Source: Egicoccus halophilus
Lineage (GTDB): Bacteria; Actinomycetota; Nitriliruptoria; Nitriliruptorales; Nitriliruptoraceae
Direction: 5' to 3'
DNA: 64,000 nt
Assembly (NCBI RefSeq): GCF_004300825.1
Contig: NZ_CP036250.1
Location: 992,001 to 1,056,000 of the forward strand
Positions 15,450 through 35,369 of the stretch are shown here, piece after piece (the stretch's first letter is position 1; each line of letters opens with the position of its first letter). Below the pieces are notes generated by a model. It did not search any database and was not told where the DNA came from. It saw only the letters and a program-made list of their open reading frames with translations. A program made the position numbers and the translations under genes.

Positions 15450-16992
15450 CGGCCGACCTCCGCCCAACGCGACGTGCCGGTCTGCAGCGAGTGCCCCTCG
15501 ACGAGCGGGACCACGACCCCGTCACCGTTGCTGCGACGCCGATGCCGCAGAATCGAGGCGAGATCGCCTTCGGCGAACCGGCCGGCCTTGGCGGCTGTGG
15601 CCAGCGCGGCGTCGACCTCGGCCTGGTCGTAGACCGCGGCGAATTCGACCGCCTGGTTCATCTTCATCCGAACCCGCGCGGTCCTGGCCGCAGCGGCGGC
15701 GGTCAACCAGGCCGCCGCTCCCGGGCCGAGCGCGAGGAACGCGGCCTCGCCCGGCGTGCGAGGTGCCGGGCGGTGCTCGAGGATCTTCGACGCCGACCGG
15801 GGCGGGTAGTGCGATAGATCCAGCCGCGGCGTGCCGGGGGTGGAGACCAGGTGGCGGGCGACCTCGGTCACGCCGTCACGGCCCTGGTGGGCGATGACGA
15901 CCTCGTCGCCGTCGACGCGGACGAACACGGTCTGGTCGATCAGCTGGTGTGGGACCGAGTAGCGCACCCCACCCAGCGAGATCACCGAACTGCGCGACAC
16001 ACCCGGGTTTCGCCCAACGCGGCCACGTAGGGGTCACGGGGCACCGGGTGGAGCCGTGCCTGTTCCTCGGCGAGCATGTCGACCGGGGGCCGGCCGGTCT
16101 CACGATGCGGGCGGGCGTTGATGTGCTCACACCACATGGCGGCCTCAGCCCGCAGCTCGGCGAAGCTGTGGTAGGCGTCGCGCAGGTTCGCCGTGGTCGG
16201 GACCAGATCCGCCTTCGCGATCCGCACAGTCGCTTCCGAGCCGCCCTTGGACTCCGGATCGGCCGGCACGCAGGTGGTGATCTGGGTGCCGTAGTGGCGG
16301 CCCGCGGCGGCCATGTCGGGATGGCGGACCGGGATCCCGGCGACATGCTCGGCCGTGACGGTCTTCTCGTTGTCGGTCAACGTGTAGGTCGCGATGCCCT
16401 CCACCCGACGGAACGTCTCGTCCAGGCACGACAGCACGGTCGGCAGGGTGCGGTCCCACACCGGGATCACCACCCGGAAACGGCTCCACGCCAGCCAGGC
16501 ACAAAACAGCAGCGTCGCCCGCCCGGCGATCCTCGGTCCGGTGCCCCAGTCGAACTGCAACCAGCCGCCCGGTTCAGTGATCCAGGGCCGATACACCCGA
16601 CGTCGTCCCGCCGCGTAGTGGTACTTGGCCTCGGCAACCGCCCGGCGCGTCGTGCGGTCGGTGCCGTCAAACCCCATCGCGGTCAGCCGCTCGTGCACGA
16701 CATCGGCCCGGATGTCGCCCTCGGAACGTTCGACGAGCTCTTCGATCTTGGCCCGGTAGCCGTCGATCATCGACGGCCGCGGCACGCTGGCCGACGGGTC
16801 GGCAGCCGCGGCACGGCGCTCGACGTAATGCTTGACGGTGTGGTGGTCGCAGCCAGCCAACCTGGACGCGCCGCGGTAGGTGCCCACGAGGTCGTAGGCC
16901 TCCAAAATCTCCATGATCTCTCCGGCAGACTTGATCCCGATCCCTCCTGGTCGGCGACGCTTCAGCACCGCCGTCGTACCGGGAGGGATCAC
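15446..16992 (-). pseudogene. istA: IS21-family transposase IstA, frameshifted
   Basis: The first part (16992 to about 15982, 336 codons) has an HTH and the DDE core: FDWGTG, ...TDNEK, and the Glu of GGSEATV. It ends prematurely just after ALGETRVCRA. The C-terminal part continues in another frame from about 16000 to 15446 (SSVISLGGVRYSVPHQL, the usual IstA C-terminal domain). One base gained or lost near 15990 would restore a ~510-residue IstA. I see no slippery heptamer, so decay or a sequencing error is likelier than programmed frameshifting. Confidence 0.82.
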
Positions 16993-17468
16993 TCGTTCAC
17001 GACAACCGTGACGAGCACGATGGACAACACCGGGGAGATCTGATGTCCGCGGGGAGCTTTCGTGTCCGCCACCGGGGAGGTCCGCTGTCCGCCTACGGGG
17101 AGAATCTCATGTCCGCCGACACCGTGTCCTGCCGCTGAGAGGCGCCAAGAACGTCCGGGCGATCGTCGATTCCGAGTTCCTCGGTCGCCTCGGGATGCCG
17201 CTGTTCGCCCTGCTCGACAACGTTCGGGTAGAGACGCTTCGCGGGGGTGAGCCGGAGCGCCCTACAGACGAGGAGAAGCTGATCCTCTCGCTGCTCAAGC
17301 AGGCTCCTCGCGATGATCTCGAGTTCCTCCCGTACTCCGAACCCGACATCATCGCCGCATTGCCCCTGGTGACCGTCGTTCGCCGCTTCGACGCGGTGAC
17401 CGCCGATCGCCTGGACTCCGATGACGGCTACTGGACCGCAGAGATCGCCCGGTGGCGCCGTGAGGTGG

Positions 17469-18846
17469 GGTGAGTCCCACGTAGTGGTGTAGGAACAGGC
17501 CCGCCGAGTCCTCACGGATGTAGGCGGGCCACCGTGCGAATCTCCAAGCTCCTACACGAAGAGGTTCGACACGATGGCCCACTACGAGTCTGCCCTATCC
17601 GATCTGGCTGAGCTGCTGACCGGCACCGACGCGACGCTGGCGAGTTCGCTGGCCGACATCCTGGCCGCCGCCATGCAGGAGTTGATCGAGGCCGAACTGA
17701 CCGGCCGGATCGGCGCCGAGCACGGCGAGCGGGCCCCGACCCGCCTGGCGCAACGCAACGGGCATCGCCCGAAGCGGCTGTCCACCCCGGCGGGTGATCT
17801 CGAGGTCGCGATCCCCAAGCTGCGCAAGGGCAGCTTCTTCCCCGAGCTGCTCGAGCCGCGCCGGCGGATCGACAAGGCCCTGTGGGCGGTGATCATGACC
17901 GCCTACATCACCGGTACCTCGACCAGGAAGGTCGACGATCTGGTCAAGGCGCTCGGTTGCGACAGCGGGATCTCCAAGTCGTCGGTGAGCAGGATCTGCA
18001 AGGGCATCGACGCTGATGTCACCGCGCTACGCACCCGCCGGTTGGACCATCAGCCGTTCGTGTACGTCTGGCTCGACGCGACCTACGTCCATGTGCGCGA
18101 GGGCGGGCAGGTCGTGTCCAAGGCGGTCGTGATCGCGACCGGGCTGCGTGCTGACGGCCACCGTGAGGTCCTCGGGGTCGATGTCGGCGACTCGGAGAAC
18201 GAGACGTTCTGGACCGAGTTTCTCCGCGACCTGCGTGAGCGGGGCCTGGCCGGCGTGAAGCTGGTCATCTCCGACGCCCACGCCGGCCTCAAGGCCGCGA
18301 TCCGCAAGGTCCTGCAGGGCTCTGGCTGGCAGCGCTGCAGGGTGCACGCGATGCGCAACCTGCTCGCGGTCGCCAAGAGCCAGCAGCGGTCGGTGATCTC
18401 CGCACTGATCCGCACCATCTTCGCCCAGCCCGACCGCGACACCGCCATCGCCCAGCTGCGTCAGGTCGTCGACCAGCTCGAGAAGCTCGCCCCCACCGTG
18501 GCCGAGCGGCTCGAGGCCATGGAGACCGACCTGCTCGCCTACACCGGCTACCCGCCGGCGCACTGGTCCAAGATCTGGTCCAACAACCCGATCGAACGGC
18601 TCAACCGCGAGCTCAAGCGCCGCACCGACGTCGTGCAGATCTTCCCCAACACCGAGTCCGTCATCCGCCTCGTCGGCGCGCTGCTCGTCGAGATGAACGA
18701 CGAGATGATCGCCGCCGACCGCCGCTACATCGCCGCCGGCTCCGTGGCCGCGCTCCTCGAGGACGAGGACCGTCTACCGTCCCTGCCAGCAGCACCCCGG
18801 CACTGACAACCAACGCACGGTCCTACACCACGCCACGGGACTCCAT
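17469..18846 (+). mobile_element. IS256-family insertion sequence with target duplication
   Basis: Imperfect terminal inverted repeats share GAGTCCC and GTGGTGTAGGA. Outside them CGTGAGGTGG occurs on both sides (17459-17468 and 18847-18856). Part of this is the 8-9-bp duplication normal for the family; the tenth base may be chance. The intact transposase and perfect duplication suggest a fairly recent insertion. Confidence 0.88.
17574..18806 (+). CDS. IS256-family (mutator-type) transposase
   Basis: A full-length 410-residue DDE transposase. The catalytic Asp residues are in VYVWLDATYVHVRE and KLVISDAHAGLKAAI, and the catalytic Glu lies in the last third near NPIERLNRELKRRTDVV. The family signature CRVHAMRNLL is present. 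Length and start (ATG after a GAAGAGG-like site) are normal, so it is probably active. Confidence 0.95.
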   Translation: MAHYESALSDLAELLTGTDATLASSLADILAAAMQELIEAELTGRIGAEHGERAPTRLAQRNGHRPKRLSTPAGDLEVAIPKLRKGSFFPELLEPRRRIDKALWAVIMTAYITGTSTRKVDDLVKALGCDSGISKSSVSRICKGIDADVTALRTRRLDHQPFVYVWLDATYVHVREGGQVVSKAVVIATGLRADGHREVLGVDVGDSENETFWTEFLRDLRERGLAGVKLVISDAHAGLKAAIRKVLQGSGWQRCRVHAMRNLLAVAKSQQRSVISALIRTIFAQPDRDTAIAQLRQVVDQLEKLAPTVAERLEAMETDLLAYTGYPPAHWSKIWSNNPIERLNRELKRRTDVVQIFPNTESVIRLVGALLVEMNDEMIAADRRYIAAGSVAALLEDEDRLPSLPAAPRH

Positions 18847-20787: not shown

Positions 20788-21471
20788 GTGCCCATCCCGG
20801 ACGGAATTTTCCTCGGCAACGGCGCCCGTACCGACGATGCGCCGGAGTCGCCGGGCGTCTACGCGTGGTTCGTCCACACTCGGCCAGGGCGAGAAGACTG
20901 GGACAAGGCTCCAAGTGTGGGAGGCGAGAATGTTGGACAGCAGCGATTCATCGCCTTTCTGAGGGCGCTCATGCGTCCGCACTCTGACGAGACACTCACC
21001 GTGTCGATGCAGGGCAGCTTTGGGCAACAGTGGACGGGAGAGGTGCGGACGGGAATCGACGAATCGGACATGCCTGAAGATGGCGACCGATACCTGTCCG
21101 TCGTCAGCCAGGATGCCCAACAACGGCGACGTTTGCTCGAAGCTGCGCACATGTTGACACCAATCTTTTCGCCACCGATCTATATCGGCGCGACGGACCG
21201 CCCCTTGCGAACACGTCTGACCGAACACATGGTCGAACTCGATCGGCTCACCTCCGGAAGTGCCGACGGGGGCGACGGCGCCTCGACAACCACAGAAGGA
21301 AAGTTCGCAATACGGGCGGCGCTAGCAGATCTCGCCCCAGAGTCGCTGACGTATGCCTGCATGCCGATGCTGCCGGTTGCCGGTGAAAGCCCAGAACAGT
21401 TTCGCAGATTGGTGTTCTCGCTGGAGCACTACTTGAACCGCAGCTGGCGACCGTCGATGGGACGAAAGTGA
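20788..21471 (+). CDS. GIY-YIG-like nuclease with a large insertion
   Basis: A 227-residue protein. GVYAW at 23-27 and IYIGAT at 131-136 match the two GIY-YIG strands. R142 in LRTRLTEH fits the conserved Arg, E213 in LEHYL the metal-binding Glu, and N217 the following polar residue. In standard GIY-YIG domains GIY and YIG are about ten residues apart; here ~105 residues separate them, so either the domain has a large insertion or only the second half is a true match. The GTG start has GAAGGA about 11 bases upstream. The stop overlaps the DGQHR gene (TGATG), giving tight coupling. Proposed role: DNA cleavage guided by its DGQHR partner. Confidence 0.6.
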   Translation: MPIPDGIFLGNGARTDDAPESPGVYAWFVHTRPGREDWDKAPSVGGENVGQQRFIAFLRALMRPHSDETLTVSMQGSFGQQWTGEVRTGIDESDMPEDGDRYLSVVSQDAQQRRRLLEAAHMLTPIFSPPIYIGATDRPLRTRLTEHMVELDRLTSGSADGGDGASTTTEGKFAIRAALADLAPESLTYACMPMLPVAGESPEQFRRLVFSLEHYLNRSWRPSMGRK

Positions 21472-23642
21472 TGTCAGATAGCGTATTTGGACTCTCGGTG
21501 GAACGCTATCAGTATACCGAAGAGGTATCCGGAAGATTTGGCAGCTTCTCGAGCGCTAGTGGACGGGTAAGCTACTTACTGACAAGTGCAAAAATTGGTC
21601 AGGCCGGGGCAAGTCAGTCCACGTCGCTAACCGAACATCTTAGGCCTGTCCGGGAAGTATTGCCCGTCAGCCGCATGAACTTCAATCAGTTGTTGCAGCG
21701 AGATATCGATGATCATCGCGTTGCTACACAGATGATTCCCTATCTCTTTCGGAACCCGTTGCAGAACACTCCGTCGTTCTTCCCACCGATCCTCGCGGTC
21801 ATCCTACCCATAACAAGAACAGCGCACTCGGGCTACTTTCCTGATGTCGTCGGAGATCCGGCGACATCCGTTGAGGTCGAAGGCGGCCAATGGCGTCGTG
21901 AGGAATACGGAGAGTTTTTCCGCGTAGATCGCCTGCTTGACGGCGACGGCCAGGAACACTTCTCCCGCTATGCGAGACTCAGTTGGCATCGGCGCAATGC
22001 GTCACTGGTCGTTCTAGATGGTCAGCACCGTGCGATGGCGCTACTTGCGATTCATCGGACCGTCAACGATCTTTGGGCCACTGATTCTCAAGCTGACTTG
22101 TACAGGCATTTCTATGAGGAGCCTGTGAGACGTCTCATGGCCACCGGTCTTCCAGAGGATCTCGAGATACCGGTCGCCTTGTGCTGGTTTCCGGAAGTAC
22201 GGGGAGCCGATTCAGATCCGGTCGCCGTGGCGCGCCGCGTATTTGTGGACGTGAATCAGACCGCTCGTCCACCGAGCGAAGCGCGATTGATCCTTTTGTC
22301 GGACGACAACTTGATTCACATCTTCGTACGCGCGACTCTTAATGAGCTACGCGGTGAAGCCGATGAATCGGAGTCATATTCGGTGCCGTTGTACGCAATA
22401 GACTACGATAATCCTGAAACCCAAACACGCACGGCCCGATGGACCGTGCTGACCACTGTTGGAATTCTGAACGAGCTTCTCGATCGAGTGATTCATGGGC
22501 CACCGAAAGTCATCGAACGCCTTGACGTGAGTTATGGGCGGGGCCGCGGGAGGGACGCGCCCCGCGAGGCTCGCTTCCGGGCACAGCTTGGTGTCTCAGA
22601 GTGGCCTATCGAAGTAATTGAAGGCGAGCGAATCTTCCGCAGATCCAGTGTCACGGCCACGCACTTCCCATCGAGTCGGCGTAGCGATCTCGAATCGGCC
22701 TACCTCGCAGGCTGGGGCACGTCGACGCTGCGGCTCTTCTCCGAGGTGATGCCCTACAGGGCGCACGTGGACGCCCTTCGCCAGATGCGCGGCGCCTGGG
22801 GGCCTGCCGGTACCGAGGTTGAAGGGCTGGCGAAGGAAGCTGTTTTCGAGGGTGTGGGCATGTACTGGGTGCTCAAGGACTCGCACGACTATTACACCAC
22901 TCGCTTCGGAAGCAGGGATGTTCCAGACTCTGCCCAGGAACTCGTTGCGGCATGGAACCTTCTTCGTCAGAAGGAGAAAGAGTTCGGTCGCCTGCGCGCG
23001 ACTTCCCTAGGTCGTTCGGAGCTCTCTGACGAAGCGGTGCTCTCCTGCAACCGCATGTACGACGTTTACCGGACCGCGGCGTGCCAGCTCGGCATGCTCC
23101 TCGCGGTGGCAACCATCGCAGATCGGGCTGGTGCTTACGGTGATTCGATAGTCGCGGTTGCGAACGATTTCATTGCCGGTGTAAACGGCTACTTTTCGGC
23201 CGATGCGTCGTCCTTTCCGGACGCCCCGTGGACTGTGATGAGCTCTCGCGTTGATGACGCGGTGAACCGCATCACCGACATGAACACCCCTCGAGGTGTC
23301 GAGTTTAGATACTTCTGGTTGGAGGTTCTTGCCGCAGGAATGCGGTCATCGTCGGATTCGCGTTTGAGCGAGATCGATATCCCCGCGCTTGTTGGTGAAG
23401 CTCGCGTGGGCTACTTCTCGTATCGCGTAAAGGAACGCGACGCTGAGTTGCGGAGGCTGGATCCTCTCCTCACTCGTGACGACGCAAGCCAGAGGGCTCG
23501 TGACGAGGTTCGTGCGGAGCTGCGGGCGGGTCTAGAAGCGTGGTTTGGCGTATCCAGTGAGCAGTTCGCCGCATGGTGGTCTGCCACGGAGGAACTTCCT
23601 CGCGACGACGAAGCCCAAGAGTCAGAGGACGAGGATGCCTAA
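21471..23642 (+). CDS. DGQHR-domain protein (DndB/SspE-like N-terminus)
   Basis: A 723-residue protein with the sequence LVVLDGQHRAMALLAIH (DGQHR at 183-187). This motif marks DndB, the phosphorothioation regulator, and the sensor half of SspE; in the latter it is linked to nucleotide hydrolysis and phosphorothioate sensing. The following VFVDVNQTARPPSEARLILL is also typical of DGQHR proteins. The C-terminal ~350 residues are helical, and I see no HNH/DUF1524 nuclease signature, unlike SspE. GC content is well below that of the neighbours and a TTA leucine codon is present (around residue 36), so it was acquired separately. It is co-translated with the GIY-YIG gene and sits just upstream of the sulfur-modification operon. 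Confidence 0.75.
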   Translation: MSDSVFGLSVERYQYTEEVSGRFGSFSSASGRVSYLLTSAKIGQAGASQSTSLTEHLRPVREVLPVSRMNFNQLLQRDIDDHRVATQMIPYLFRNPLQNTPSFFPPILAVILPITRTAHSGYFPDVVGDPATSVEVEGGQWRREEYGEFFRVDRLLDGDGQEHFSRYARLSWHRRNASLVVLDGQHRAMALLAIHRTVNDLWATDSQADLYRHFYEEPVRRLMATGLPEDLEIPVALCWFPEVRGADSDPVAVARRVFVDVNQTARPPSEARLILLSDDNLIHIFVRATLNELRGEADESESYSVPLYAIDYDNPETQTRTARWTVLTTVGILNELLDRVIHGPPKVIERLDVSYGRGRGRDAPREARFRAQLGVSEWPIEVIEGERIFRRSSVTATHFPSSRRSDLESAYLAGWGTSTLRLFSEVMPYRAHVDALRQMRGAWGPAGTEVEGLAKEAVFEGVGMYWVLKDSHDYYTTRFGSRDVPDSAQELVAAWNLLRQKEKEFGRLRATSLGRSELSDEAVLSCNRMYDVYRTAACQLGMLLAVATIADRAGAYGDSIVAVANDFIAGVNGYFSADASSFPDAPWTVMSSRVDDAVNRITDMNTPRGVEFRYFWLEVLAAGMRSSSDSRLSEIDIPALVGEARVGYFSYRVKERDAELRRLDPLLTRDDASQRARDEVRAELRAGLEAWFGVSSEQFAAWWSATEELPRDDEAQESEDEDA

Positions 23643-23917: not shown

Positions 23918-25066
23918 GTGGGTATCTACCTCGACAACAATGCAACCACGCCGGTAGATCCGGCCGTGGTTGATGCCATCTTGCCTCATTTCACATCCGG
24001 GTTCGGCAACGCCGCTTCAACGCACCCACGTGGTCGCAGGGCTGCAGCGACGGTTGAGACCGCTCGCGACGACGTCGCCGATGCCCTGGGCGTCGACTCG
24101 CGGCGGGTCGTCTGGACCTCCGGCTCGACCGAGGCGCTCAACACCGCCTTGAAGGGCCTAGGGCGGACTCGCGGAGCTCGGGACCAGCTGATCGTCGGCG
24201 CCACTGAACACAAGGCCGTCCTTGACGTCGCGGAGTGGCTCGCAGCAACGGATGGCGTCGACGTCTTGACCGTCGCGCCGCGCCCGGACGGGGTTGTGGA
24301 CCTCGATGCCCTATGCGCGGCAGTGACGGACCGAACGTTCGCCGTCGCCGTCATGGCAGCCAACAACGAGACGGGCGTCATCAACCCAGTCGGCGAGGTG
24401 GCCGAGATCGCTCGGCGGGTCGGCGCTGCGTACGTTTGCGACGCGACGCAGGTGCCCGGCAAGTGTTCGCTCGACCTTGGTGTCGCAGACATCCTCGCCG
24501 TCTCGGCGCACAAGGTCTACGGTCCCCAAGGGATCGGAGCGCTCGTGGCTCCGCGGCCTGGCAGTCAGTTCAAGCTGGAGCCGCTGCTGCATGGCGGGGG
24601 GCACGAGCGAGGGCTTCGTTCGGGGACCCTCAACCTCCCGGGTATCGTCGGCTTCGCGGCCGCACTCGAGCTCGCTCAACGGCGCATCGACTCCGACCTA
24701 CCTCGGATGGCGCAGCTCCGCGATCGACTCGAGGTGGGTCTCGCCAGCCGACTCGGCGGTGTCACAGTCCACGGCAAGGATGCACCGCGCCTACCGAACA
24801 CATCCAACGTCAGGATCGAGGGCGTGGACGCCGACGCGATGGTTGTCAACACACCGGCTGTCGCCTTCTCCTCGGGCTCGGCCTGCACTGCGGCAGTTCC
24901 AACCCCGTCGCACGTCCTCACCGCGATGGGCCTGCCGACCGAAGCAGCGGAGGAGAGCATCCGCCTGTCCGTGGGTCGGTACACAACCGAAGAAGAGGTC
25001 GATCGGGCGATCGAGCTACTCGCTACTTCCGCCGAACGCCTCCGCGAACTGAATGGAGCTGCCTAG
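23918..25066 (+). CDS. sspA: Cysteine desulfurase of DNA phosphorothioation (SspA/DndA)
   Basis: A PLP-dependent NifS/IscS-type enzyme of 382 residues that takes sulfur from cysteine as an enzyme persulfide. Visible features: the N-terminal YLDNNATTPVDP, the PLP lysine K199 in SAHKVYGP, and active-site C323 in FSSGSACTAAVP, a short loop like that of group II/DndA enzymes. The GTG start is the first codon giving the family N-terminus. The stop shares one base with the next start, so it leads a four-gene operon with DUF4007, ATPase and PP-loop genes. That context separates it from Fe-S housekeeping desulfurases. Confidence 0.9.
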   Translation: MGIYLDNNATTPVDPAVVDAILPHFTSGFGNAASTHPRGRRAAATVETARDDVADALGVDSRRVVWTSGSTEALNTALKGLGRTRGARDQLIVGATEHKAVLDVAEWLAATDGVDVLTVAPRPDGVVDLDALCAAVTDRTFAVAVMAANNETGVINPVGEVAEIARRVGAAYVCDATQVPGKCSLDLGVADILAVSAHKVYGPQGIGALVAPRPGSQFKLEPLLHGGGHERGLRSGTLNLPGIVGFAAALELAQRRIDSDLPRMAQLRDRLEVGLASRLGGVTVHGKDAPRLPNTSNVRIEGVDADAMVVNTPAVAFSSGSACTAAVPTPSHVLTAMGLPTEAAEESIRLSVGRYTTEEEVDRAIELLATSAERLRELNGAA

Positions 25067-26124
25067 TGAGCGTCGCCATCAAGCAGTCACTTCACGCGAC
25101 CTTCGGACGGCACGAGACCTTCACGCCCCGTTACAGCTGGCTCAAGCGGGGCTATGACGCCGTCGCGGATCCGGACTACCTAACAGACCTCCGTGCGCGC
25201 GACGGGGAGTACATCTTCAACGACGATGACGCTCACCACCGCCTCGGCGTCGGGAAGAACCAGGCCCGCTCGATCAGGTTCTGGCTACAAGCCTTCCGGC
25301 TCATCGAGGAACAGAAGGTTCCCGGCCGCCGCGCACCGGCTGGCGAGCCCACGATCCTTGGCCAGTCCCTCCTGGACACTGTGTCCGGGCTCGACCCCTG
25401 GTTGGAGGACACTGGTACCTGGTGGTTGCTCCACTGGATGGCACTTTCTCCGGGCGGCTACTTGCCCGTATGGTGGACTGCCTTCCACACGTTCCCCGCG
25501 GTTGAGTTCACGATCGAACAGCTTCTCGAGCACGTGCAAGCTCAGGTCGAGACGACCTCGACGTGGAATCAGCCGAAGCCGGCACATCGCGGCACGGTGA
25601 AGAAGGACGTGCTGGCCCTGCTGCGCGCGTATGCCGGTACGTCTGGTTCGCGTAGGCGGGACGCGCTTGATGACGATCTCGACGCTCCGCTCGTTCCGCT
25701 CACTCTCATTCGAGAGACGGACGAGATCGGCCGCTTCCGCTTCGGTGTCGGCCCGAAGCCGGGGCTTCCAGCGGCCGTCGCAGCGTTCGCGTGTCTCGAC
25801 TTCCTGTCGCGCACGGGAAACACCGCCCGACAAGTGCTGGTGGCCACGCTTGCCAGCGAGCAGGGGGGGCCGGGGCGGGCGCTGAAGCTGACGGAGCGCG
25901 ATCTTGCTGACCTGCTTGCTCAGGCGGCGGAAGAGGCGCCCGGCCTAATCGGGATGGTGAATACCGGCGGCTCCGAGGCCCTGGCGGTTATAGGAGACGA
26001 GTCGTTTGGACTAGTCGCGGCACGCGTGCTTCATGCTCACTACCGACGGCTCGGCGCCTCATCACCGGAGCCGGAAACGCCGTACCTGCCGAGTGCGCAG
26101 TTCCATCTCGGAGACTGGACATGA
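25066..26124 (+). CDS. sspB: DUF4007 protein, SspB-type nickase
   Basis: A 352-residue DUF4007 family protein. The N-terminus SLHATFGRHETFTPRYSWL is the family hallmark (the FxRHETF-like start), followed by LGVGKNQARSIRFW. In SspABCD systems the DUF4007 member, SspB, is described as a nicking component needed for phosphorothioate insertion; I rely on memory for that. The central and C-terminal parts are helical with no obvious nuclease motif. It overlaps its neighbours at both ends (TAGTG and ATGA), so stoichiometric translation is expected. It presumably acts on DNA in complex with SspC and SspD. Confidence 0.82.
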   Translation: MSVAIKQSLHATFGRHETFTPRYSWLKRGYDAVADPDYLTDLRARDGEYIFNDDDAHHRLGVGKNQARSIRFWLQAFRLIEEQKVPGRRAPAGEPTILGQSLLDTVSGLDPWLEDTGTWWLLHWMALSPGGYLPVWWTAFHTFPAVEFTIEQLLEHVQAQVETTSTWNQPKPAHRGTVKKDVLALLRAYAGTSGSRRRDALDDDLDAPLVPLTLIRETDEIGRFRFGVGPKPGLPAAVAAFACLDFLSRTGNTARQVLVATLASEQGGPGRALKLTERDLADLLAQAAEEAPGLIGMVNTGGSEALAVIGDESFGLVAARVLHAHYRRLGASSPEPETPYLPSAQFHLGDWT

Positions 26125-29100
26125 CCATGACTCGGCTGGACGATCACGTACAAGTTCGCGGTCGCTTCGCTCGATCGGTCCGCCTCGATCGTGACGGCGA
26201 ACAGGAGAGCCAGATCGAGGGCTACCTCCCGACCGCTCGTAGCCTCGAGGTAATACGGCGCGTCGTGGCCGGAATGGCCCGAGACGGCGGGTCCCGCGCT
26301 TTCTCGATCACGGGCCCCTACGGCTCGGGTAAGTCGTCCCTCGCCGTCTTCCTCGATGCCCTGCTCGGGCGAACCAACTCTGGCTCGCACAACAACGCAC
26401 TCCGCCTCCTGCAGGAACATGATCCGGCCACCGCTGAACAGCTTGACGTGGCACGCCGCACCATGGGTGCCGGAACGGGCGGGTTCGTGCGAGCAGTAAT
26501 TACGGCACCGCAACGAGAGCCCATCACGACGACAGTCCTACGGGCCTTGGATCGAGGTGCTCGCCGTGCTCGGATAGCCAAAGAAGTCCGTGAGAAAATC
26601 GCCACGGCTCTCGAGCGCGCGATGTCGCCGAGGTTCGCCTCGCCTTCCTACCACGAGGTTCATGAACTCATCACGGAGCTGGCGAAGCGCAAGCCGATCC
26701 TCCTGATTGTGGACGAATTCGGCAAGAATCTCGAGGCGTACGCGGAGTCCGGTACCGAAGGAGACCTATACCTGCTGCAGGAACTCGCTGAGTGGTCGTC
26801 CGGGGAGCGGCGTCTGCCGCTGGTCCTCGTGACCATCCAACACTTGGCGTTCGAGGCGTACGCAGTCGACACATCGGCGGCGCAGCGTCGCGAGTGGGCG
26901 AAGGTCCAAGGCCGTTTCGAGGACATCTCATACGTCGACTCGGCAGCTGCCACCCGCGGCCTGATCGCCGCGGCGCTCGAACACTCGGCCGATCGCGGCT
27001 ACTTGGACCTGAGGGGTGAGGCGGTCGACGAGGTTCTCGCCGAGGCCGAAGATGCGGGCCTTGCCACCGTGGCCAGTCGCGAGCTCGTCGAGTCGTGTTT
27101 CCCGCTCCATCCGTCGACCCTGCTCGTCCTTCCCGCGTTGTGCGCCCGCTACGGACAGAACGAGCGGACGCTGTTCTCATTCCTTGCCTCGGATGAGCCC
27201 CAGTCGCTGACTTCCTTCACTCGGAGTACTCGGCTCGACGGAGAGGCGCGTCCGTGGGTGAGGCTTGACCGTGTCTACGACTACTTCGTCGAGTCGGCAT
27301 CGACATTCGTAGGCGCTTCGCGAGACGCCAACCGATGGGTCGAGATCGAGACAGCGATTCGGGACTCACACGGGCTCTCGTCCGCCCAGCTCCGGGTCCT
27401 GAAGGTCGTTGGCGTCCTGAACCTGGTGGCCTCGGCCGGTGCCCTGCGTGCGTCGGCGGATCTCATTGAGTTCGCGCTCAGAGGAACTGAGCCGGCACTG
27501 GCCGATTCGAAAGCGGTGAGGGCGAGGCTCGGTGAGCTTGAGCAGCTAGGCATCCTCACCTATCGAGATTTCGCCTCCGAGTATCGAATTTGGCAAGGCT
27601 CGGACTTCGACATCCCAACTGCCCTGACGAGTGCGCGACGCGAGCTCCGGCGAGGGTCGGTGGCGCAAGTCCTTCGGGACACCGTGCCTCTGCGCCCCCT
27701 TGTCGCTGCTCGGCACTCGATCAAGTCCAACGTCATGCGAGCGTTCGCCCGAACCTTTGCCGATGAGATGACCGCACGGGTTGAGGTGCCTCGGCCGTCG
27801 GACGTCCGCGACGGCGTTCTCGTCTACGCGTTGAGCAGTTCTGGGACTCGGCCGTTGCCGGAGGATGAGGCCTATCCCGTCGTGGTCGTGGAGCCGACGA
27901 CTGAACACCTCGACGCGATGCTCGCAGCCACCATCGAGGTCGCGGCACTTCGGGTCGTGCTCGAGGACCCCAACCTTCAGGCGGACGATCGCGCGGCGAG
28001 GCGGGAGCTCGCGGAGCGACTTGCCTTGGCGAGGCAGGTGCTCGAACACCGGATCGGCATCGCATATGGCACTGATGCTCGGTGGGTCTGGGTCAATCCT
28101 CCGTCGGGCGACGAACGGGACTTGAAACCACTGCGCGGGTCCGACGCCTTGTCGGATGTCGTCGACGAGGTCTACAGCGAGAGTCCGGTCGTCCGTTATG
28201 AGGCTATCAACCGTGCTGAGCTGACCTCGCAGGGTGCGAAAGCACGGCGGATTCTCTTGGAAGCAGCGTTGACGCCGACCCGCGCCGTCGAACCCCGCCT
28301 TGGTCTCGAGGGAGATGGACCCGAGGTAGGCATGTTCCGTGCGGTCCTCCAGGACTCTGGACTTCACCGCTCGGGCCATGGTTTCGCGGCTCCTCAGCCG
28401 ACAGAGGACTGGATTCCGGTGTGGCGACACCTCAACCAGACCCTGCGCCAGGCCATCGGCAACGCCATCTCGATCCGACACGTACTTGATGAGCTCATGC
28501 GCCCCCCGTATGGGTTGCGCTTTGGCGTGGCGACGGTCGTGCTGACTGCCGGCCTCATCCACAACGCGCACGACATCGCGGTCTATGAGCACGGCACCTT
28601 CAAGCCGCGGCTGGATGCCGCGATGTCTGAGCGGATGGTGCGGAACCCAGACAACTTCGCCGTCAAACACCTCGCATCGAGCGGGGAGCAATCGAAGCGG
28701 TCTCAGACAGTTGAACTCTTGACAGAGGCGCTGGCAAGACCGGATGTCCCGACGCCGGATAGATCGACCGTGCTTTCCGTCGTCTTGCTACTCCTCCGCC
28801 CGTTCCACATCAGTGGGACTACGTACACGCGCAAGTCCAAGCGATTCTCCGCAGTGTGGGATGCCACAGTGGATCAGGACCGTGTCTCCATGACTCGCGC
28901 GGTCCGAGATGCTTTGGTATCGGTCCAGGAACCGGATGTGCTGCTCTTCGAAGCTCTTCCCCACGCTGTGGGTTTTGGGTCCCTTCCCGCGTCGGGGCGG
29001 GGTCCAGACGCGATGGGTGATTCGGAGATTCCGGAGTTCGTCCGCCGAGTCGCGCGCGCGGTCGAGGCGATCGAGGATGCGTACCCGGCGCTGTGTCGCC

Positions 29101-29675
29101 GGATCGTGGCGGTTGTTCTCGGAGCCGCTCACGCCAAAACTCTCGAAGTAATTTCGGGAGATGCCGCCCTGCTCGATGACGTCGAACTCGTGAGTCCCCC
29201 GGTCCGGACGTTCACTGGCCTAGCGCGGATGGCGTCGAGCCTCGACGAGGCCACTTTCGCCCAACAGGTAGCCACCGCAGTCACGGGTACGCCGCCCTCA
29301 GAGTGGATCGATGCAGACATTCCAGGCTTTCTCGCCCGTATCAGGGAGGTGGCATCCTCTTTCCGGCGCGTCGCCGCTCTCGCCCACGCACGGCGGACCC
29401 GTGCGCAGACGGGAGACGGCTTCGACGCCTTCGCTCTTGACCTGACGCGCGAAAGTGGCGAGCAGGTGTCCGAAGTCGTGGCCGTGCGCGCGACGGAGCT
29501 CGATGCCTTGGCAGTCCATGTCACAGACCTCGTGGAGAATGCCAGGACGACAACCGGCGATGAGGCGTCAGCGACGCGAGCGTTGATCGCGATTCTCGCT
29601 GCACGCCTGTTCGATCAAGATGGTGCCCAGCAACCAGAAGTTTTCGACGAGAAGACGGAGCGACGGCATGCCTGA
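26121..29675 (+). CDS. sspC: Large P-loop ATPase, SspC-type
   Basis: An 1,184-residue ATPase. Walker A GPYGSGKSS is at residues 65-73 and Walker B PILLIVDEFGKNLE at about 193-206. The remaining ~900 residues are mostly helical, without other recognisable motifs. Size and position between DUF4007 and the PP-loop gene match SspC, the ATPase of single-strand phosphorothioation systems. BrxC-type ATPases of BREX have similar size and architecture, but no PglZ or methylase gene is present, so Ssp is the better fit. The start overlaps the sspB stop (ATGA) and its end overlaps sspD by 8 bp. Confidence 0.8.
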   Translation: MTMTRLDDHVQVRGRFARSVRLDRDGEQESQIEGYLPTARSLEVIRRVVAGMARDGGSRAFSITGPYGSGKSSLAVFLDALLGRTNSGSHNNALRLLQEHDPATAEQLDVARRTMGAGTGGFVRAVITAPQREPITTTVLRALDRGARRARIAKEVREKIATALERAMSPRFASPSYHEVHELITELAKRKPILLIVDEFGKNLEAYAESGTEGDLYLLQELAEWSSGERRLPLVLVTIQHLAFEAYAVDTSAAQRREWAKVQGRFEDISYVDSAAATRGLIAAALEHSADRGYLDLRGEAVDEVLAEAEDAGLATVASRELVESCFPLHPSTLLVLPALCARYGQNERTLFSFLASDEPQSLTSFTRSTRLDGEARPWVRLDRVYDYFVESASTFVGASRDANRWVEIETAIRDSHGLSSAQLRVLKVVGVLNLVASAGALRASADLIEFALRGTEPALADSKAVRARLGELEQLGILTYRDFASEYRIWQGSDFDIPTALTSARRELRRGSVAQVLRDTVPLRPLVAARHSIKSNVMRAFARTFADEMTARVEVPRPSDVRDGVLVYALSSSGTRPLPEDEAYPVVVVEPTTEHLDAMLAATIEVAALRVVLEDPNLQADDRAARRELAERLALARQVLEHRIGIAYGTDARWVWVNPPSGDERDLKPLRGSDALSDVVDEVYSESPVVRYEAINRAELTSQGAKARRILLEAALTPTRAVEPRLGLEGDGPEVGMFRAVLQDSGLHRSGHGFAAPQPTEDWIPVWRHLNQTLRQAIGNAISIRHVLDELMRPPYGLRFGVATVVLTAGLIHNAHDIAVYEHGTFKPRLDAAMSERMVRNPDNFAVKHLASSGEQSKRSQTVELLTEALARPDVPTPDRSTVLSVVLLLLRPFHISGTTYTRKSKRFSAVWDATVDQDRVSMTRAVRDALVSVQEPDVLLFEALPHAVGFGSLPASGRGPDAMGDSEIPEFVRRVARAVEAIEDAYPALCRRIVAVVLGAAHAKTLEVISGDAALLDDVELVSPPVRTFTGLARMASSLDEATFAQQVATAVTGTPPSEWIDADIPGFLARIREVASSFRRVAALAHARRTRAQTGDGFDAFALDLTRESGEQVSEVVAVRATELDALAVHVTDLVENARTTTGDEASATRALIAILAARLFDQDGAQQPEVFDEKTERRHA

Positions 29676-30522
29676 CAGTGTCCGACACATCTGCGGTATC
29701 TCTGGCGGAAAGGACTCCTCAGCGCTGGCCCTCTACCTTCGCCGGACCCGCCCAGAACTAGATATCGACTACTTTTTCTGTGACACGGGCGCCGAGCTCC
29801 CGGAGACGTACGAGTATCTGACGAAGCTCGAGGCCGCCCTCGGCCAGCCCATCACCCGGCTGAACGCGGACCGTGGCTTCGACCACTGGTTCGAAGTCTT
29901 CCGAGGCGCCCTGCCCTCACCCCAGATGCGTTGGTGCACGAAGAATATGAAGATCAAGCCGATCGAAGAGTGGATCGGCGACGATCCGGCAATCTCCTAC
30001 GTCGCCATCCGGGCGGACGAGTCAAACCGAAAGGGCTACGTCTCCACGAAGCCGAACATCAGTGCGGTCTTTCCATTCGTCAATGACGGCATCGACCACG
30101 ATGGAGTGATGCGGATACTCGACGACTCCGGGATCGGCCTGCCCTCCTACTACGAGTGGCGAACGAGGTCCGGTTGCTACTTCTGCTTCTATCAGCGCAA
30201 GTCCGAGTGGGTCGGCCTCGCCGATCGACACCCCGACCTGTTCGAGCGCGCCAAGCAGATCGAGCGGAAGGTCCTGACCGAGGCCGGCCTCACCGGTGAT
30301 GCGTCATACGACGACTATGCTATGGCCGGCCGCCAGTACACCTGGTCACAGGGCGAGACGCTCGATGAGCTCCTCTCGAGGCGGGATGAGATCATTGACC
30401 GTCACCGCCAGGCGATGGAACGAGCGAAGGAACGGAAGCGAGATCTTCCGCTCGTCGATGCGCTCAGTGAGGCGCTAGACGCAGACGACGACACAATGGC
30501 CTGCACAGTCTGCGCGCTTTGA
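29668..30522 (+). CDS. sspD: PP-loop sulfurtransferase, SspD/DndC-type
   Basis: A 284-residue member of the PAPS-reductase/ATP-pyrophosphatase superfamily. The PP-loop SGGKDSS is at residues 12-18. FFCDTGAELPETY and RWCTKNMKIKPIEEW follow, and then GCYFCFYQRKSEW and a terminal CTVC. The Cys set could hold an Fe-S cluster as in DndC. The proposed role is to adenylate or otherwise activate DNA and pass sulfur from SspA. The ATG at 29668 lies eight bases inside sspC with CGGAG upstream; earlier starts would add an unrelated leader. It ends the modification operon. Confidence 0.88.
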   Translation: MPDSVRHICGISGGKDSSALALYLRRTRPELDIDYFFCDTGAELPETYEYLTKLEAALGQPITRLNADRGFDHWFEVFRGALPSPQMRWCTKNMKIKPIEEWIGDDPAISYVAIRADESNRKGYVSTKPNISAVFPFVNDGIDHDGVMRILDDSGIGLPSYYEWRTRSGCYFCFYQRKSEWVGLADRHPDLFERAKQIERKVLTEAGLTGDASYDDYAMAGRQYTWSQGETLDELLSRRDEIIDRHRQAMERAKERKRDLPLVDALSEALDADDDTMACTVCAL

Positions 30523-30772
30523 CATCCACGAATAGGAGTGTTGGAGCGACACTACGGGGTCGCGGGTTTCGTTCGATCACGCCACTTGATGCGCTATTGG
30601 GGCGACGGTAGTCACGAACACCACCGAAAACGTTACCGAGCGCGCTTAGGGCACGCGATACTTTCCATGGTCGACGCGCTTCGACCGCGGCACTGCAAGG
30701 GAAGACGGTGCGGAGGCGTGTACTATTTCCACCAGGATTATCGGACTTGAATGCGCATCTAAGGAGATGGGG
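30523..30772 (+). promoter_or_regulatory. Gap between modification and restriction operons
   Basis: 250 bases without a gene. TACTAT near 30721 is a fair -10 element, so the restriction-like operon probably has its own promoter. The downstream ribosome binding site AAGGAG is at 30761-30766; it touches an ATG at 30767 but is correctly spaced from the ATG at 30773. Confidence 0.35.
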
Positions 30773-32959
30773 ATGGGGCTGCCTGACCTCGATCTCGGGA
30801 GCAGGACCTATCGATTGCCGCGCGATCCGCTCGTCAGCGACGTCCTCAACCCTTGCTTCGCCGAGGCGTACAGAGTCCGCGGGCAGTTCGCCTACTTCAC
30901 GTCGCATGTGCTGGGTCAAGTGTCGGCTGGGTTGACGGCGTTCCTCGCTCGCGAGGATGAGCCTCCACCCATAGAATTCGTCGTATCGCCTTGGCTGTCC
31001 GACCAAGACGCCGCCGCGGTGCTCGAGGCAGCCGCCGACCCGCGCAGGGTGCTCGAGGACGTACTCCGAATGGGGCTGCTCCGCGCACCACGGAGCCTCA
31101 CCGTCGACGCGGTCGAGGAGCACACCCTTCGGTGCTTCGCTTGGCTACTAGCCTCCAACCGCCTACGTCTCGATATCGCAGTGGTGCCTGGTGGACGGTT
31201 CCACGAGAAGACATGGGAGTTCTCCGACCGCGAACGCGCCGAGGGACATAACGGCCATGTGGTCTACGTCGCGGGGTCAGCGAACGCGACCCGACAGGCT
31301 CTGCGGGTCAACAGCGAATCGATGTCCGTGTTTCCGTCGTGGGTGGCCGGCACGGAGGGGCACGTCGGGCCACTGAGGGAGAGCTTCTCGGACGTGTTTG
31401 AGGGGCGCTCGGTTCCGCTCTACCCGATGAGCGACGCACTGCTGAATGAGTGGATCGAAACCTGGAAATCCGATTTCGAGCCGACCGAAGAAGACCTCGA
31501 ACGTGCAGCCAGGAAGGTAGGTGACCTCTGGCTCATCGCCGACCCGGTGGCCAAGATTGAGGTGCCGCATGTGTCAGCGAGCGACGGAGAGCCGTTCATA
31601 CCCGAATGGCTGAACTGGACGAGGCCTCCCTACGAGCACCAACGTGAGGCAGTCTTGGCTTGGGAAGCTGCGGGGCGTCGTGGCGTCATGGAGATGGCGA
31701 CAGGCGCTGGCAAGACGTGGACCGCGTTGGTGTCAGCCGTCAGGGCCCACTACGAAACCGAGGGACCGACGCTCCTGACGATCGCAGTCCCTTTCACGCC
31801 CCTGCTTCACCAGTGGGCCGAGGACTGTTCTCGTTTCGGCATCGATGCCGCTCTCCCGACCGCGAGCTCAGGGAGTCGTCTCGGGAAGTTCTCCCAGTTG
31901 AACGAGCTCATAAGCGAGCTGACCCTCGGGGCACGGAGCTTTGGCTGCGTCATCGTGACGCACCATCTTCTCGGAGATCCGGAATTCGATGCGTTGGTTC
32001 AGGACGCCGCGGACCTTGGGGTCGCGACCATGCTCGTCGGTGACGAGGTCCATCGGCTTGGTGCGACACGTTTCATCAGCGACCCTCCTGAGGGCTTCGC
32101 AAAGCGACTCGGACTCTCAGCCACTCCTTCGCGACAGTACGATGTGGAGGGGACCACGCAGATGTACGGCTACTTCGGCGACACCGTCTTCGAGTACGGC
32201 CTCGACCAGGCGATCGGGTCTTGCCTCGTCGAATACGACTACTACGTTGAGGTCGTCCGACTGAACTGGGATGAGGTCGAGGAATTCAACGAGCTGACGC
32301 GGAAGATCGGGGCAGCCTATCGCCCAAACGCCACCTTCAGTGAGAACCCGGCATACGCCGCCGCTGTGCGTCGACGCCGAGCGTTCCTCGACACCGCCGC
32401 CGGGAAACTGCCGGCGCTCGCTCGAGCCCTAGAGCGGTACGGACCCTCCCCGCTCTCGCACACGTTGATCTACTCGAGTGCGCGTGAGAGCAGCCAGCTC
32501 GGTGAGGTGCAGGATCTGCTCGATGGCCGCAATGTCTCGAACGCCCGAATCACCTACCAGGAGACGCCGAACCTCCACTTGGTGCAGGAGATTGTCGAGC
32601 GTTTTAGAGCGGGTGAGATCGCTGTGCTGAACGCGATGAAGGTTCTCGACGAGGGTTTCAACATCCCGGAGATCACGACCGCCTTCCTGTTCTCCTCGAC
32701 GGGTACGGAGCGCGAGTGGACTCAGCGGCGTGGGCGAGTCCTGCGCATGGCACCTGGGAAGGGCCGAGCGACTATCGTCGACTTCGTCGTTCTTCCGCCG
32801 GCTGATGCGGAACCGACACCAGCGGCGCAGCGATACATCGACGGGGAGCTCGTGCGTATCGAAGCCTTCGCGCGTTTCGCAGCGAATCAGCACGCAGACG
32901 ACGGCGCGGCTCGCGTGATCACGCAGCTGCTCCGGGAAAGCACAGGAGGCCAGAGGTGA
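30773..32959 (+). CDS. PLD-nuclease/SF2 helicase fusion
   Basis: A 728-residue two-part enzyme. The N-terminal ~250 residues contain a single phospholipase-D-type HKD-like site (FHEKTWEFSD at ~143-152 and YVAGSANATRQAL at ~165), the signature of PLD nucleases. The C-terminal part is a superfamily 2 helicase/translocase: motif I MATGAGKTWTAL (~308-319), motif II DEVH (424-427), motif III LSATPSR, motif VI QRRGRVLRM. Such fusions occur as restriction enzymes in phosphorothioation neighbourhoods. The ATG at 30773 is chosen from AAGGAG spacing. The stop overlaps the next gene by 4 bp, starting a four-gene operon. Confidence 0.85.
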   Translation: MGLPDLDLGSRTYRLPRDPLVSDVLNPCFAEAYRVRGQFAYFTSHVLGQVSAGLTAFLAREDEPPPIEFVVSPWLSDQDAAAVLEAAADPRRVLEDVLRMGLLRAPRSLTVDAVEEHTLRCFAWLLASNRLRLDIAVVPGGRFHEKTWEFSDRERAEGHNGHVVYVAGSANATRQALRVNSESMSVFPSWVAGTEGHVGPLRESFSDVFEGRSVPLYPMSDALLNEWIETWKSDFEPTEEDLERAARKVGDLWLIADPVAKIEVPHVSASDGEPFIPEWLNWTRPPYEHQREAVLAWEAAGRRGVMEMATGAGKTWTALVSAVRAHYETEGPTLLTIAVPFTPLLHQWAEDCSRFGIDAALPTASSGSRLGKFSQLNELISELTLGARSFGCVIVTHHLLGDPEFDALVQDAADLGVATMLVGDEVHRLGATRFISDPPEGFAKRLGLSATPSRQYDVEGTTQMYGYFGDTVFEYGLDQAIGSCLVEYDYYVEVVRLNWDEVEEFNELTRKIGAAYRPNATFSENPAYAAAVRRRRAFLDTAAGKLPALARALERYGPSPLSHTLIYSSARESSQLGEVQDLLDGRNVSNARITYQETPNLHLVQEIVERFRAGEIAVLNAMKVLDEGFNIPEITTAFLFSSTGTEREWTQRRGRVLRMAPGKGRATIVDFVVLPPADAEPTPAAQRYIDGELVRIEAFARFAANQHADDGAARVITQLLRESTGGQR

Positions 32960-33252
32960 CTACGGCATCGCGCGACCGAGAGCGCGCCGCAGCGATCGGG
33001 AACACGGAAGCTCTCGGCGAAGTTCTACGCCGCGAGACGGCGGCCGTGGCCGAGGCCCGGGTCTGCGCTGGCGGCGAGCCCTGGGCGGAGTTGCTCCACT
33101 CTGATGAGTACGCTCGCATCCTCGGCGCGTTCATAATGAACTTGATAAATAACGAGCGTACAAACGCTACCGAGCGGGGCGTCGCAATTCATGACCTCAA
33201 CGCGAACGCCCTGACTCAGGCGGTTCAGCAAGTGCGGCAGGGGCAGACGTGA
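32956..33252 (+). CDS. Small 98-aa protein of the restriction-like operon
   Basis: It begins with GTG overlapping the helicase stop (GTGA) and its own stop overlaps the DndD-like gene in the same way. The 98 residues are mainly helical, acidic to neutral, with no Cys or motif I recognise (middle: HSDEYARILGAFIMNLINNE). By position it is where DndE stands relative to DndD, but the sequence does not resemble DndE. A bridging or regulatory subunit is the most that can be inferred. Confidence 0.65.
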   Translation: MTTASRDRERAAAIGNTEALGEVLRRETAAVAEARVCAGGEPWAELLHSDEYARILGAFIMNLINNERTNATERGVAIHDLNANALTQAVQQVRQGQT

Positions 33253-35369
33253 TCAGGTTCAAACAGATTCGCCTCTCGAACTTCTTGGTCTTCCGTGACG
33301 CCGTTGTCGACTTCGCGACGGACGGCCGAGTGACCGTGCTGAGGGCAGAGAACGGCAGCGGCAAGACCACCTTCCTGCGGGCGATGGAGTGGGCCATCTA
33401 CGGCGACGAGTCTCTCCCTGGAGCTCGGAGGTACCGGCTCCACCCGCCAGATCACCGCATGCCGGAGGATGGCCCCATCCTGGTCTCCGTCGAACTCGAC
33501 GTGGACGTGGAAAGCGCGGATGGTCTCAAGGAGGCCACGATCCGGCGCTTCTCCGAGGTGAAGCCGTCGGAGGACGGCTGGGAACGGACGCTCTCTGAGG
33601 CGGAGTTCACGTTCGCTGACGGGACGGCTGGCGACGAGGACACCCTTGAGACGCTTCTCCCGTGGCGGCTGCGAGAGTTCTTTTTCACTGACGGAGACAA
33701 GGCTACCGACTACGTCGGTGGACTCGATGAAGAGGAGCTCGTCTCTTCGAGCAAGAAGGCTGCCGCCTCGAGCCTGCGCGGCAACGTAACCGAGGCAGTT
33801 CAATCCTTGCTCGGGCTCGATCTCATCGATGCGGTCCGAGCCAAGGCCGTGCAGCGATCAAAAGACCTTGACAAGGAGCTGGCGAAGTCCACTGGAAGCG
33901 GCGCCCTCGCTGAAGCCAGTCAGAAGCAGAGTGAGGCGCAGGAGCACCACGCCAGAATCAAGGTCGACCTCGCGAAGCACGAGGAGGAACGCCGAGCCCT
34001 CGCCGCAGAGATCAACGACCTCGAGGAGCGGCGAGATGAGCTCTTGCGCTCCGGCGACCCGGATGAACTTCAGCGACAGGTTGCTAGAGCAGAGAAGCGG
34101 CTGAAGAAGAGTCGCGAGAAGCTCGCGCTGGCTGAGCGCGAAGAAGCGCGCACCCTCACATCGGCTCCCTTCACGTACACCGCGGCTGCTCCCGCGCTGA
34201 TGGATTTCGTCGAGCGCGCGGAGCCTCTCGTTGAATCGGGAGTCGTTCCCGCCACTTACCTTTGGTGGGTGCGGAGGCGGCTCGAAGAGGGCATCTGTAT
34301 GTGCGGGTGCGGCCTCGATCCTCAGGGAGGGCCCGCCGACCGCGAGCGCCACGAGAACGTCACGAAGTTGGTCGCGCAATCCGAGGAGGAAACGCGTTCC
34401 GCGAACCACGCTGGAGACCTCTATTACCACCTTCACGGTCAGCTCGAAAGCCTGCAGCACAACAGCTGGCTCGAGCAGCTCGCGACCTCCGCTCAAGCCC
34501 AAAAGGAGGCCCGCGACGAGATCATCGACGCGGAGCGCAACATCGATGATCTCGAACCTCGACTTGCCATGGTGAAAGACTCACCAGTCGAAGGCCTGCG
34601 TAGGCAGCTGTTGACCTTGCGTGAGCGTGACAAGGAGCTCGACAAGGCGATCGCCGGCCTCGCGCGTGAGCTCAAGGCGGCCTACGACGACGTCGTGACG
34701 GCGGATCGACAGCTTGACGCTGCTCGCCGGAGGGCCCACACCGCCGGTGACATCAGCATCAAGTCTTCCCTCTACCAGGACCTCCTTGAGGTCCTTCGCC
34801 GAGCCAAGACGTGGCGTACGGTCGAAGATGTCGAAGCGTTGTCCTCGCGAATGAACGATCTCTTCAGGGGCATGATCGGCAACCATGAAATTCTCGCGGA
34901 AGTTCGCGTCACGAGATCCGATACGGAGACCTTCGAGGTGGCAGGTATCGGGATCGATGGTAGGCGGATGGATGTCGCCCATCAGTTCAACGGGGCCTCA
35001 AAAAGAGCGTTGACTAACGCCTTCGTGCTCGCCCTCGGAGAGACGGCAGGTGTTCGTGCTCCGCACGTCATCGATACACCGCTCGGCATGATGGACCCCT
35101 CAGTTCGTCGCAACGTCTTCGAGGTCATGAGCAAGGAATGCGTCCAGCTCGTACTGTTGTTGACACGATCTGAGATCAGTGGCATCGAGGAGATGCTCGA
35201 TGCATCGAGTTTGACGTTGACCGTGACGAATCAGGGTTCAGGCGACCTAGTGAACCGCCAGTTCGACGACACGCGGTCGGTGGTGTGCGCATGCAGCCAC
35301 CGTGAGTACTGCCTCGTCTGTGAACGTGCTGGCGACGAGTCGAGCTCACTCGTGAGGAGGTCGGCGTGA
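33249..35369 (+). CDS. DndD-like SMC/Rad50-type ATPase
   Basis: A 706-residue ABC-type ATPase. N-terminal FKQIRLSNFLVFRDAVVDF and Walker A ENGSGKTT (34-41) are followed by long coiled-coil arms (about 200-300 and 370-500) and the C-terminal Walker B variant HVIDTPLGMMDPSVR, whose D-T-P-L-G is typical of DndD. The signature loop is FNGASKRALTN rather than LSGGQ. The turn between the arms carries C350, C352 and C354 (CMCGCG), a possible zinc hook. A second Cys group (C680, C682, C688, C691) sits at the C-terminus. Dnd systems use DndD in modification; here it is in a separate operon with a helicase, so a restriction role is equally possible. Confidence 0.82.
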   Translation: MIRFKQIRLSNFLVFRDAVVDFATDGRVTVLRAENGSGKTTFLRAMEWAIYGDESLPGARRYRLHPPDHRMPEDGPILVSVELDVDVESADGLKEATIRRFSEVKPSEDGWERTLSEAEFTFADGTAGDEDTLETLLPWRLREFFFTDGDKATDYVGGLDEEELVSSSKKAAASSLRGNVTEAVQSLLGLDLIDAVRAKAVQRSKDLDKELAKSTGSGALAEASQKQSEAQEHHARIKVDLAKHEEERRALAAEINDLEERRDELLRSGDPDELQRQVARAEKRLKKSREKLALAEREEARTLTSAPFTYTAAAPALMDFVERAEPLVESGVVPATYLWWVRRRLEEGICMCGCGLDPQGGPADRERHENVTKLVAQSEEETRSANHAGDLYYHLHGQLESLQHNSWLEQLATSAQAQKEARDEIIDAERNIDDLEPRLAMVKDSPVEGLRRQLLTLRERDKELDKAIAGLARELKAAYDDVVTADRQLDAARRRAHTAGDISIKSSLYQDLLEVLRRAKTWRTVEDVEALSSRMNDLFRGMIGNHEILAEVRVTRSDTETFEVAGIGIDGRRMDVAHQFNGASKRALTNAFVLALGETAGVRAPHVIDTPLGMMDPSVRRNVFEVMSKECVQLVLLLTRSEISGIEEMLDASSLTLTVTNQGSGDLVNRQFDDTRSVVCACSHREYCLVCERAGDESSSLVRRSA

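Follow-up and report, generated by a model that had tools for sequence, protein, structure and literature searches.

Many phosphorothioation (PT) loci have no recognised restriction component, and DndB (TIGR03233/PF14072), a DGQHR-domain protein of about 360 aa, is known as a regulator and not as a gate for a nuclease. Two of the described effectors, SspE with SspABCD and DndI with DndBCDE, each unite a nuclease with a ParB-like NTPase (PMC9646914, PMC11662687). SspE is a single DUF262-DUF1524 chain with an HNH nuclease and a DGQQR motif, and its sensing patch is Y30-Q31-R32 (PMC9646914). The type IV enzymes of the GmrSD group also combine a ParB-like (DGQQR) subunit with a nuclease and are sometimes described as two genes (PMC4619093); their nuclease is of the HNH kind, their target is DNA containing glucosylated hmC, and they have no tie to PT genes. 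Other restriction modules that go with PT writers are SspFGH, DndFGH and PbeABCD, and SspE and SspFGH are mutually compatible (PMC8092258). As for GIY-YIG nucleases, Rakesh et al. 2024 mention URI/GIY-YIG genes bordering Dnd loci and propose them to be stand-alone backups or suicide effectors (PMC10853773).

The locus considered here lies in a window of 64,000 nucleotides (positions 992001-1056000 of the contig) from the 3.98-Mb, single-contig genome of Egicoccus halophilus. An earlier note on this DNA, made from the letters alone, had proposed that two translationally coupled genes form a split version of SspE, with the sensor and a GIY-YIG nuclease on separate chains. Both open reading frames are where that note placed them (Table 1), and they share one base within TGATG; a purine-rich AGAAGGAA stands upstream of 20788, the P0001 start. 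The pair does lie upstream of sspABCD, as had been claimed, but not directly so: 275 bp separate the end of P0002 from sspA, and the same locus also holds a pbeABCD-like cassette (30767-35875). This cassette combines a PbeA helicase and a CxC ABC ATPase in the order A-B-C-D, with B and D assigned by position only, the proteins of 98 and 169 aa at those positions having no family match in profile scans; it is a candidate separate restriction cassette.

Table 1. Genes of the pair, the Ssp writer and the pbe-like cassette (window positions)
Feature	Position	Strand	Residues, motifs or matches
P0001, predicted GIY-YIG nuclease subunit, 227 aa	20788..21471	+	Y25, Y132, R143, H147, E213; GTG start, stop TGA 21469-21471
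P0002, long DndB-like DGQHR protein, 723 aa	21471..23642	+	DGQHR 183-187; ATG start
sspA, cysteine desulfurase	23918..25066	+	PADLOC SspA 1.7e-127
sspB (DUF4007)	25063..26124	+	Pfam DUF4007 7.4e-65, PADLOC SspB 4e-79
sspC, ATPase	26121..29675	+	PADLOC SspC 1.7e-302
sspD, PAPS-reductase-like sulfurtransferase	29665..30522	+	PADLOC SspD 4.2e-113
pbeA-like helicase, weak PLD/HKD match	30767..32959	+	PADLOC PbeA 2.1e-156, TIGR04095
Small protein in pbeB position, 98 aa	32956..33252	+	position alone
pbeC/DndD-like ABC ATPase, CMCGC motif	33249..35369	+	PADLOC PbeC 8.3e-36, TIGR03185 1.8e-28
Protein in pbeD (DndE-cognate) position, 169 aa	35366..35875	+	position alone

Elsewhere in the window, a gene for an 855-aa protein (35862-38429, minus strand) converges on the pbe-like cassette; the protein has an HTH at its N terminus and a long region without assignment. 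Left of the pair, 14676-18806 holds an IS21-type istB, a neighbouring ORF and a Mutator-family transposase, which may mark one border of a mobile island. All four genes of a type II Wadjet system are present at 49257-57698 (jetA 49257-51026, jetB inside 49964-52267, jetC 52264-56439, jetD 56436-57698), so the window carries several defence systems; adjoining it is a gene for a 670-aa Schlafen group 3 helicase-domain protein (47387-49399, minus strand) with a weak PDC-S41/Nhi/AbiO match.

What kind of protein is P0001? Scanned as a single sequence it gave no match in Pfam, PADLOC or NCBIfam, and phmmer returned chance matches only from the PDB, so a family profile was needed. Across 46 relatives, which are 17-27% identical to P0001, the columns of G23, Y25, W27, P130, Y132, G134, R143, H147, E213, P222 and G225 are invariant; with 57 relatives the Y132, R143, H147 and E213 columns are invariant, as is Y25 in the 56 that cover it. 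The GIY-YIG-like residues picked out in the earlier note, E213 among them, are thus not a chance resemblance, though its R142 should read R143. Pfam GIY-YIG (PF01541) is matched individually by 31 of the 46 relatives, though not by P0001 itself, and the family profile finds UvrC (E 0.006), phage T4 endonuclease II (EndoII) and I-TevI in the PDB. Structure prediction, which had been suggested as the check, yields the expected fold: the AlphaFold2 model (pLDDT 87.1, pTM 0.78) has as its best VIA-align rows UvrC (1yd5; Z 8.4, 86 residues, 28% identity) and R.Eco29kI (3mx4; Z 7.8, 93 residues, rmsd 2.0 A). The non-nuclease rows comprise one plant Grx N-terminal domain at Z 7.2, with the next unrelated structure at Z 3.0, and Foldseek alone places R.Eco29kI at a non-significant E of 0.19. 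A Z near 8 would be ordinary if it stood alone; here the sequence profile and the catalytic residues point the same way as the fold, and the GIY-YIG reading therefore holds. By sequence and model, then, P0001 is a GIY-YIG nuclease in fold, with an intact predicted active site, and would be expected to cleave DNA. Its fold and catalytic residues are those of R.Eco29kI and other GIY-YIG nucleases, from which it differs in having a constant DndB-like neighbour and an unusually long insert of about 100 residues (roughly 30-129) between the GIY and YIG strands (Y25 and Y132 are some 107 residues apart); the insert may be a docking element.

P0002 comprises a ParB/Srx-like part (about 17-300) and a helical C-terminal part (about 330-720), modelled with a pLDDT of 86.8 as an alpha/beta N-terminal part followed by helices. 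The motif set described for DGQHR domains - QR, DGQHR and FxxxN (PMC4619093) - is present as QR 76-77, DGQHR and F258-x3-N262, all three invariant in 52/52 relatives. Pfam finds no HNH domain in P0002, in agreement with the earlier note, whose description of SspE as a DGQHR sensor was mistaken: the SspE motif is DGQQR (DUF262), and DGQHR is the signature of DndB. It is to DndB that P0002 is related. All 52 aligned relatives have a weak Pfam DndB match (seven have a weak match to GmrSD_N), and in profile-profile comparison with hhalign residues 64-341 align with DndB at 98.4% and E 9e-15, while the same kind of comparison detected no similarity to SspE. The residue before QR (position 75) is L in 37, M in 12 and I in 3 of the 52, so the SspE sensing tyrosine is absent, as are the DUF262/DGQQR domain and a same-chain C-terminal DUF1524 HNH domain. 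Among the structure matches listed for the N-terminal part there is only SspE (6jiv, 7drr; residues 27-264), at a modest Z of 5.1 over about 147 residues; Foldseek gave nothing useful. Since P0002 is homologous to DndB and has neither profile similarity to SspE nor its tyrosine, a split SspE is an analogy only. What stands of that idea is the GIY-YIG nuclease, the conserved pairing and the PT linkage.

Nor is P0002 simply DndB, the name under which RefSeq annotates its relatives. It scores 13.5 bits against a PF14072 cut-off of 29.1 and has no match to TIGR03233, and in four loci (L010, L013, L030 and L036) a DndB protein above the TIGR03233 cut-off is encoded alongside a P0002 homologue. Motifs and profile place P0002 in the DGQHR-domain superfamily, and the low scores together with the true DndB in the same loci indicate a long DndB-superfamily protein distinct from DndB; we rejected the reading of P0002 as a new DndB because the canonical protein co-occurs. 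The two share a homologous DGQHR domain with the QR and FxxxN motifs, but members of the P0002 family are about 720-790 aa long, add the helical C-terminal part and have a nuclease partner gene.

To survey the pair we assembled 89 loci: 80 on genome contigs, from a scan with the DGQHR alignment, two on viral contigs, those on plasmids, and the window itself. A GIY homologue (a relative of P0001) lies directly upstream of the DGQHR gene on the same strand, overlapping it or within a few bases, in 56 of them (57 counting L043), and none of the fetched loci showed the two proteins fused. The writer is Ssp for 31 pairs and Dnd for 17, and for nine it was not resolved inside the fetched flank. SspD or DndC lies inside the fetched flanks in 71/89 loci; when the genomes of 14 loci without a nearby writer were searched, 12 had either a full SspD or a DndC scoring over the curated cut-off, the two exceptions being a Myxococcales MAG (L011) and Halochromatium (L052). 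A genome survey of this sort was called for in the earlier note, and the pair is nearly always beside an Ssp or Dnd writer; the two outcomes that its author had named as fatal, no GIY-YIG fold and a wide occurrence of the pair away from PT genes, are not what we found. On plasmids, three divergent GIY queries returned six records, all beside a DGQHR gene and PT genes. A scan of viral contigs with the GIY alignment found no relative, and one with the DGQHR alignment gave the two loci mentioned above; one of these encodes a DGQHR protein with the same sequence as one from a Streptomyces dnd locus.

Two surveys of whole genomes, which depend less on sampling by way of DGQHR, agree with this picture. 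In Streptomycetaceae, DndC is present in 15/200 genomes and a long full-length DGQHR protein in five, all of them DndC-positive; with the centre genome left out, long DGQHR genes are in DndC-positive genomes in 4/4 cases against 14/199 DndC-positive overall (p 1.6e-5, ignoring relatedness). The single clear GIY match there adjoins DGQHR; a weak one, in genome G480, proved to belong to a remote GIY-DGQHR pair (L093) located after sspB-sspC-sspD and a further DndB-like gene. In 292 cyanobacterial genomes each of the three clear GIY genes has sspD on one side and DGQHR on the other, and 6/7 long DGQHR genes adjoin sspD. Among the clear matches of both surveys there was no GIY gene without DGQHR. 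A GIY gene is found in 1/15 Dnd-bearing Streptomycetaceae and about 3/18 SspD-positive cyanobacteria; only a minority of PT loci have the pair, as an accessory.

Several loci have features of their own. The additional DndB-like protein of the Streptomyces Ssp locus L093 (5825-7417) has 530 aa and is encoded between sspD and the pair; similar genes, for proteins of 420-475 aa, occur in L055, L063 and L083. The GIY gene looks interrupted in Trichormus (L008:11231-11914, annotated as two hypothetical proteins), where DGQHR is open, and a cyanobacterial survey genome (G779:C2:98676-99347) has a stop inside GIY with the DGQHR gene and SspD open. In a Mycobacterium dnd locus (L054:7529-11906) the pair is broken up, with a transposase gene between DGQHR fragments. 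Two Asticcacaulis plasmids (L005:24775-26917, L006:22800-24946) encode a DUF262 protein and a protein kinase in convergent orientation to the pair and the ssp genes; the two may form a further effector module.

The pairing does not hold in both directions. DGQHR occurs without a GIY gene in 32/89 loci, and so must have some role without it; one of these, L050, is labelled Ssp only because of a short sulfurtransferase ORF at the locus end. About 18-19 of the 32 have a GHKL ATPase instead, a protein of some 577 aa (HATPase_c_3, MzaB-like) whose gene, in a single actinobacterial dnd clade (loci L015-L023, L026, L028, L036, L040, L046, L049 and L053 among them), stands upstream of the one for the long DGQHR protein, and one such genome, G396, had no GIY gene when searched whole; we accordingly rejected the idea of a GIY partner for all DGQHR proteins. 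In L085 an HNH nuclease occupies the GIY position upstream of DGQHR. SspE is found beside the pair in three loci (L055, L074 and L082), against the notion that the pair always replaces it, and in four Ssp loci (L077, L079, L084 and L086) no SspE or Pbe homologue was seen near the pair, where unannotated ORFs could be effectors.

If the two proteins work together, how closely have their histories been tied? Pairwise distances in the GIY and DGQHR trees correlate at r 0.92 overall and at 0.95 within both Ssp and Dnd loci; between GIY and the sulfurtransferase the correlation is 0.32 within Ssp and 0.76 within Dnd. The members of the pair thus show close co-evolution, while their tie to the writer is much looser, as expected if the pair moves as a unit between writers. 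One half of the DGQHR tree is mostly Ssp and the other mostly Dnd. P0002 is 31-38% identical to Dnd-type rows and 20-26% to Ssp-type rows, and it groups, on a long branch of uncertain placement, with the Dnd half in spite of its Ssp locus, which points to transfer of the pair from one writer to another.

We put at roughly 0.5 the probability that the pair is one functional unit, a GIY-YIG nuclease controlled by the DndB-like protein and serving as an accessory restriction effector of PT systems. The intact predicted active site, the constant pairing, the co-evolution and the PT linkage lead to this reading, together with the Ssp loci without a recognised SspE or Pbe, the HNH replacement in L085 and the precedents of SspE, DndI and GmrSD. 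Counting against it are the DndB-like sequence of P0002, the absent sensing tyrosine, the DGQHR genes without GIY and the coexistence with SspE.

An explanation we consider unlikely is regulation of the DndB type, in which P0002 autoregulates or limits PT modification, while the GIY-YIG protein merely shares its operon or acts by itself, as a suicide effector encoded at the PT-locus edge. The homology to DndB, the RefSeq naming, the DGQHR genes without GIY and the URI nucleases reported from Dnd-locus boundaries (PMC10853773) speak for it. The canonical DndB beside the long DGQHR protein in four loci does not, and a stand-alone effector need not lie directly upstream of DGQHR and co-evolve with it so closely. 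A role in assisting the writer, with P0002 directing the GIY-YIG protein to nick DNA for sulfur insertion or turnover and no part in restriction, seems distinctly improbable: single-strand PT does need SspB nickase activity (PMC8092258) and the pair is often within the writer operon (e.g. sspBCD-GIY-DGQHR), but most PT loci lack it, it accompanies writers of two kinds, its co-evolution with SspD is weak, and SspD is open in the cyanobacterium whose GIY gene has a stop. A true two-gene equivalent of SspE, in which PT binding by P0002 switches on the nuclease, is very doubtful, since the SspE structure rows and the few GmrSD_N matches are set against a Z that is modest by itself, the lack of profile similarity and tyrosine, and the presence of the pair with Dnd double-strand PT as well.

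Under the reading of the pair as a controlled nuclease, the DndB-like part would bind nucleotide and sense, on DNA, either the writer complex or the state of PT. The helical C-terminal part of P0002, perhaps with the nuclease's long insert, would prevent the GIY-YIG subunit from acting on the host's DNA, and P0002 would license it to nick or cut invading DNA. Its polarity might be that PT activates, as for SspE, or that PT protects, as for DndI and SspFGH. For such a system we infer that the two proteins form a complex, use NTP, recognise PT, cleave DNA and act against phage with one or the other polarity. The pair would be an additional layer in the three loci that have SspE or, in the window, in a locus with Pbe, much as SspE and SspFGH are compatible.

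How does such a pair stand beside the described systems? Like SspE and DndI it brings a ParB/Srx-like NTPase motif and a nuclease to PT loci, but with two genes, GIY-YIG, DGQHR and no tyrosine where SspE has one chain, HNH, DGQQR and the Y-Q-R patch; with SspFGH, DndFGH and PbeABCD it shares the association with writers, the component proteins being wholly different. The P0001 family differs from the Dnd-edge URI genes of Rakesh et al. 2024 in its long insert and its constant DndB-like neighbour, and in being found in Ssp loci as well. We found no description of the pair as a unit in the open-access literature searched, GIY-YIG genes near Dnd loci being already known. The pair is probably a two-part, PT-linked anti-phage restriction module. 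That it is a new one for both writer families, made of a DndB-like NTPase reader of PT or writer and a separate GIY-YIG subunit with a docking insert, we propose tentatively, at slightly less than even odds.

If this is true, the module would provide the first case of a DGQHR protein gating a GIY-YIG effector, and that effector would be portable, swapped between Ssp and Dnd systems. As a two-gene system it would make reader and nuclease separable for study. The RefSeq label DndB covers proteins that coexist with true DndB, and the pair would hint that DndB-like proteins do more than control transcription; occurring with both Ssp and Dnd writers, it would give a subset of PT loci a restriction component.
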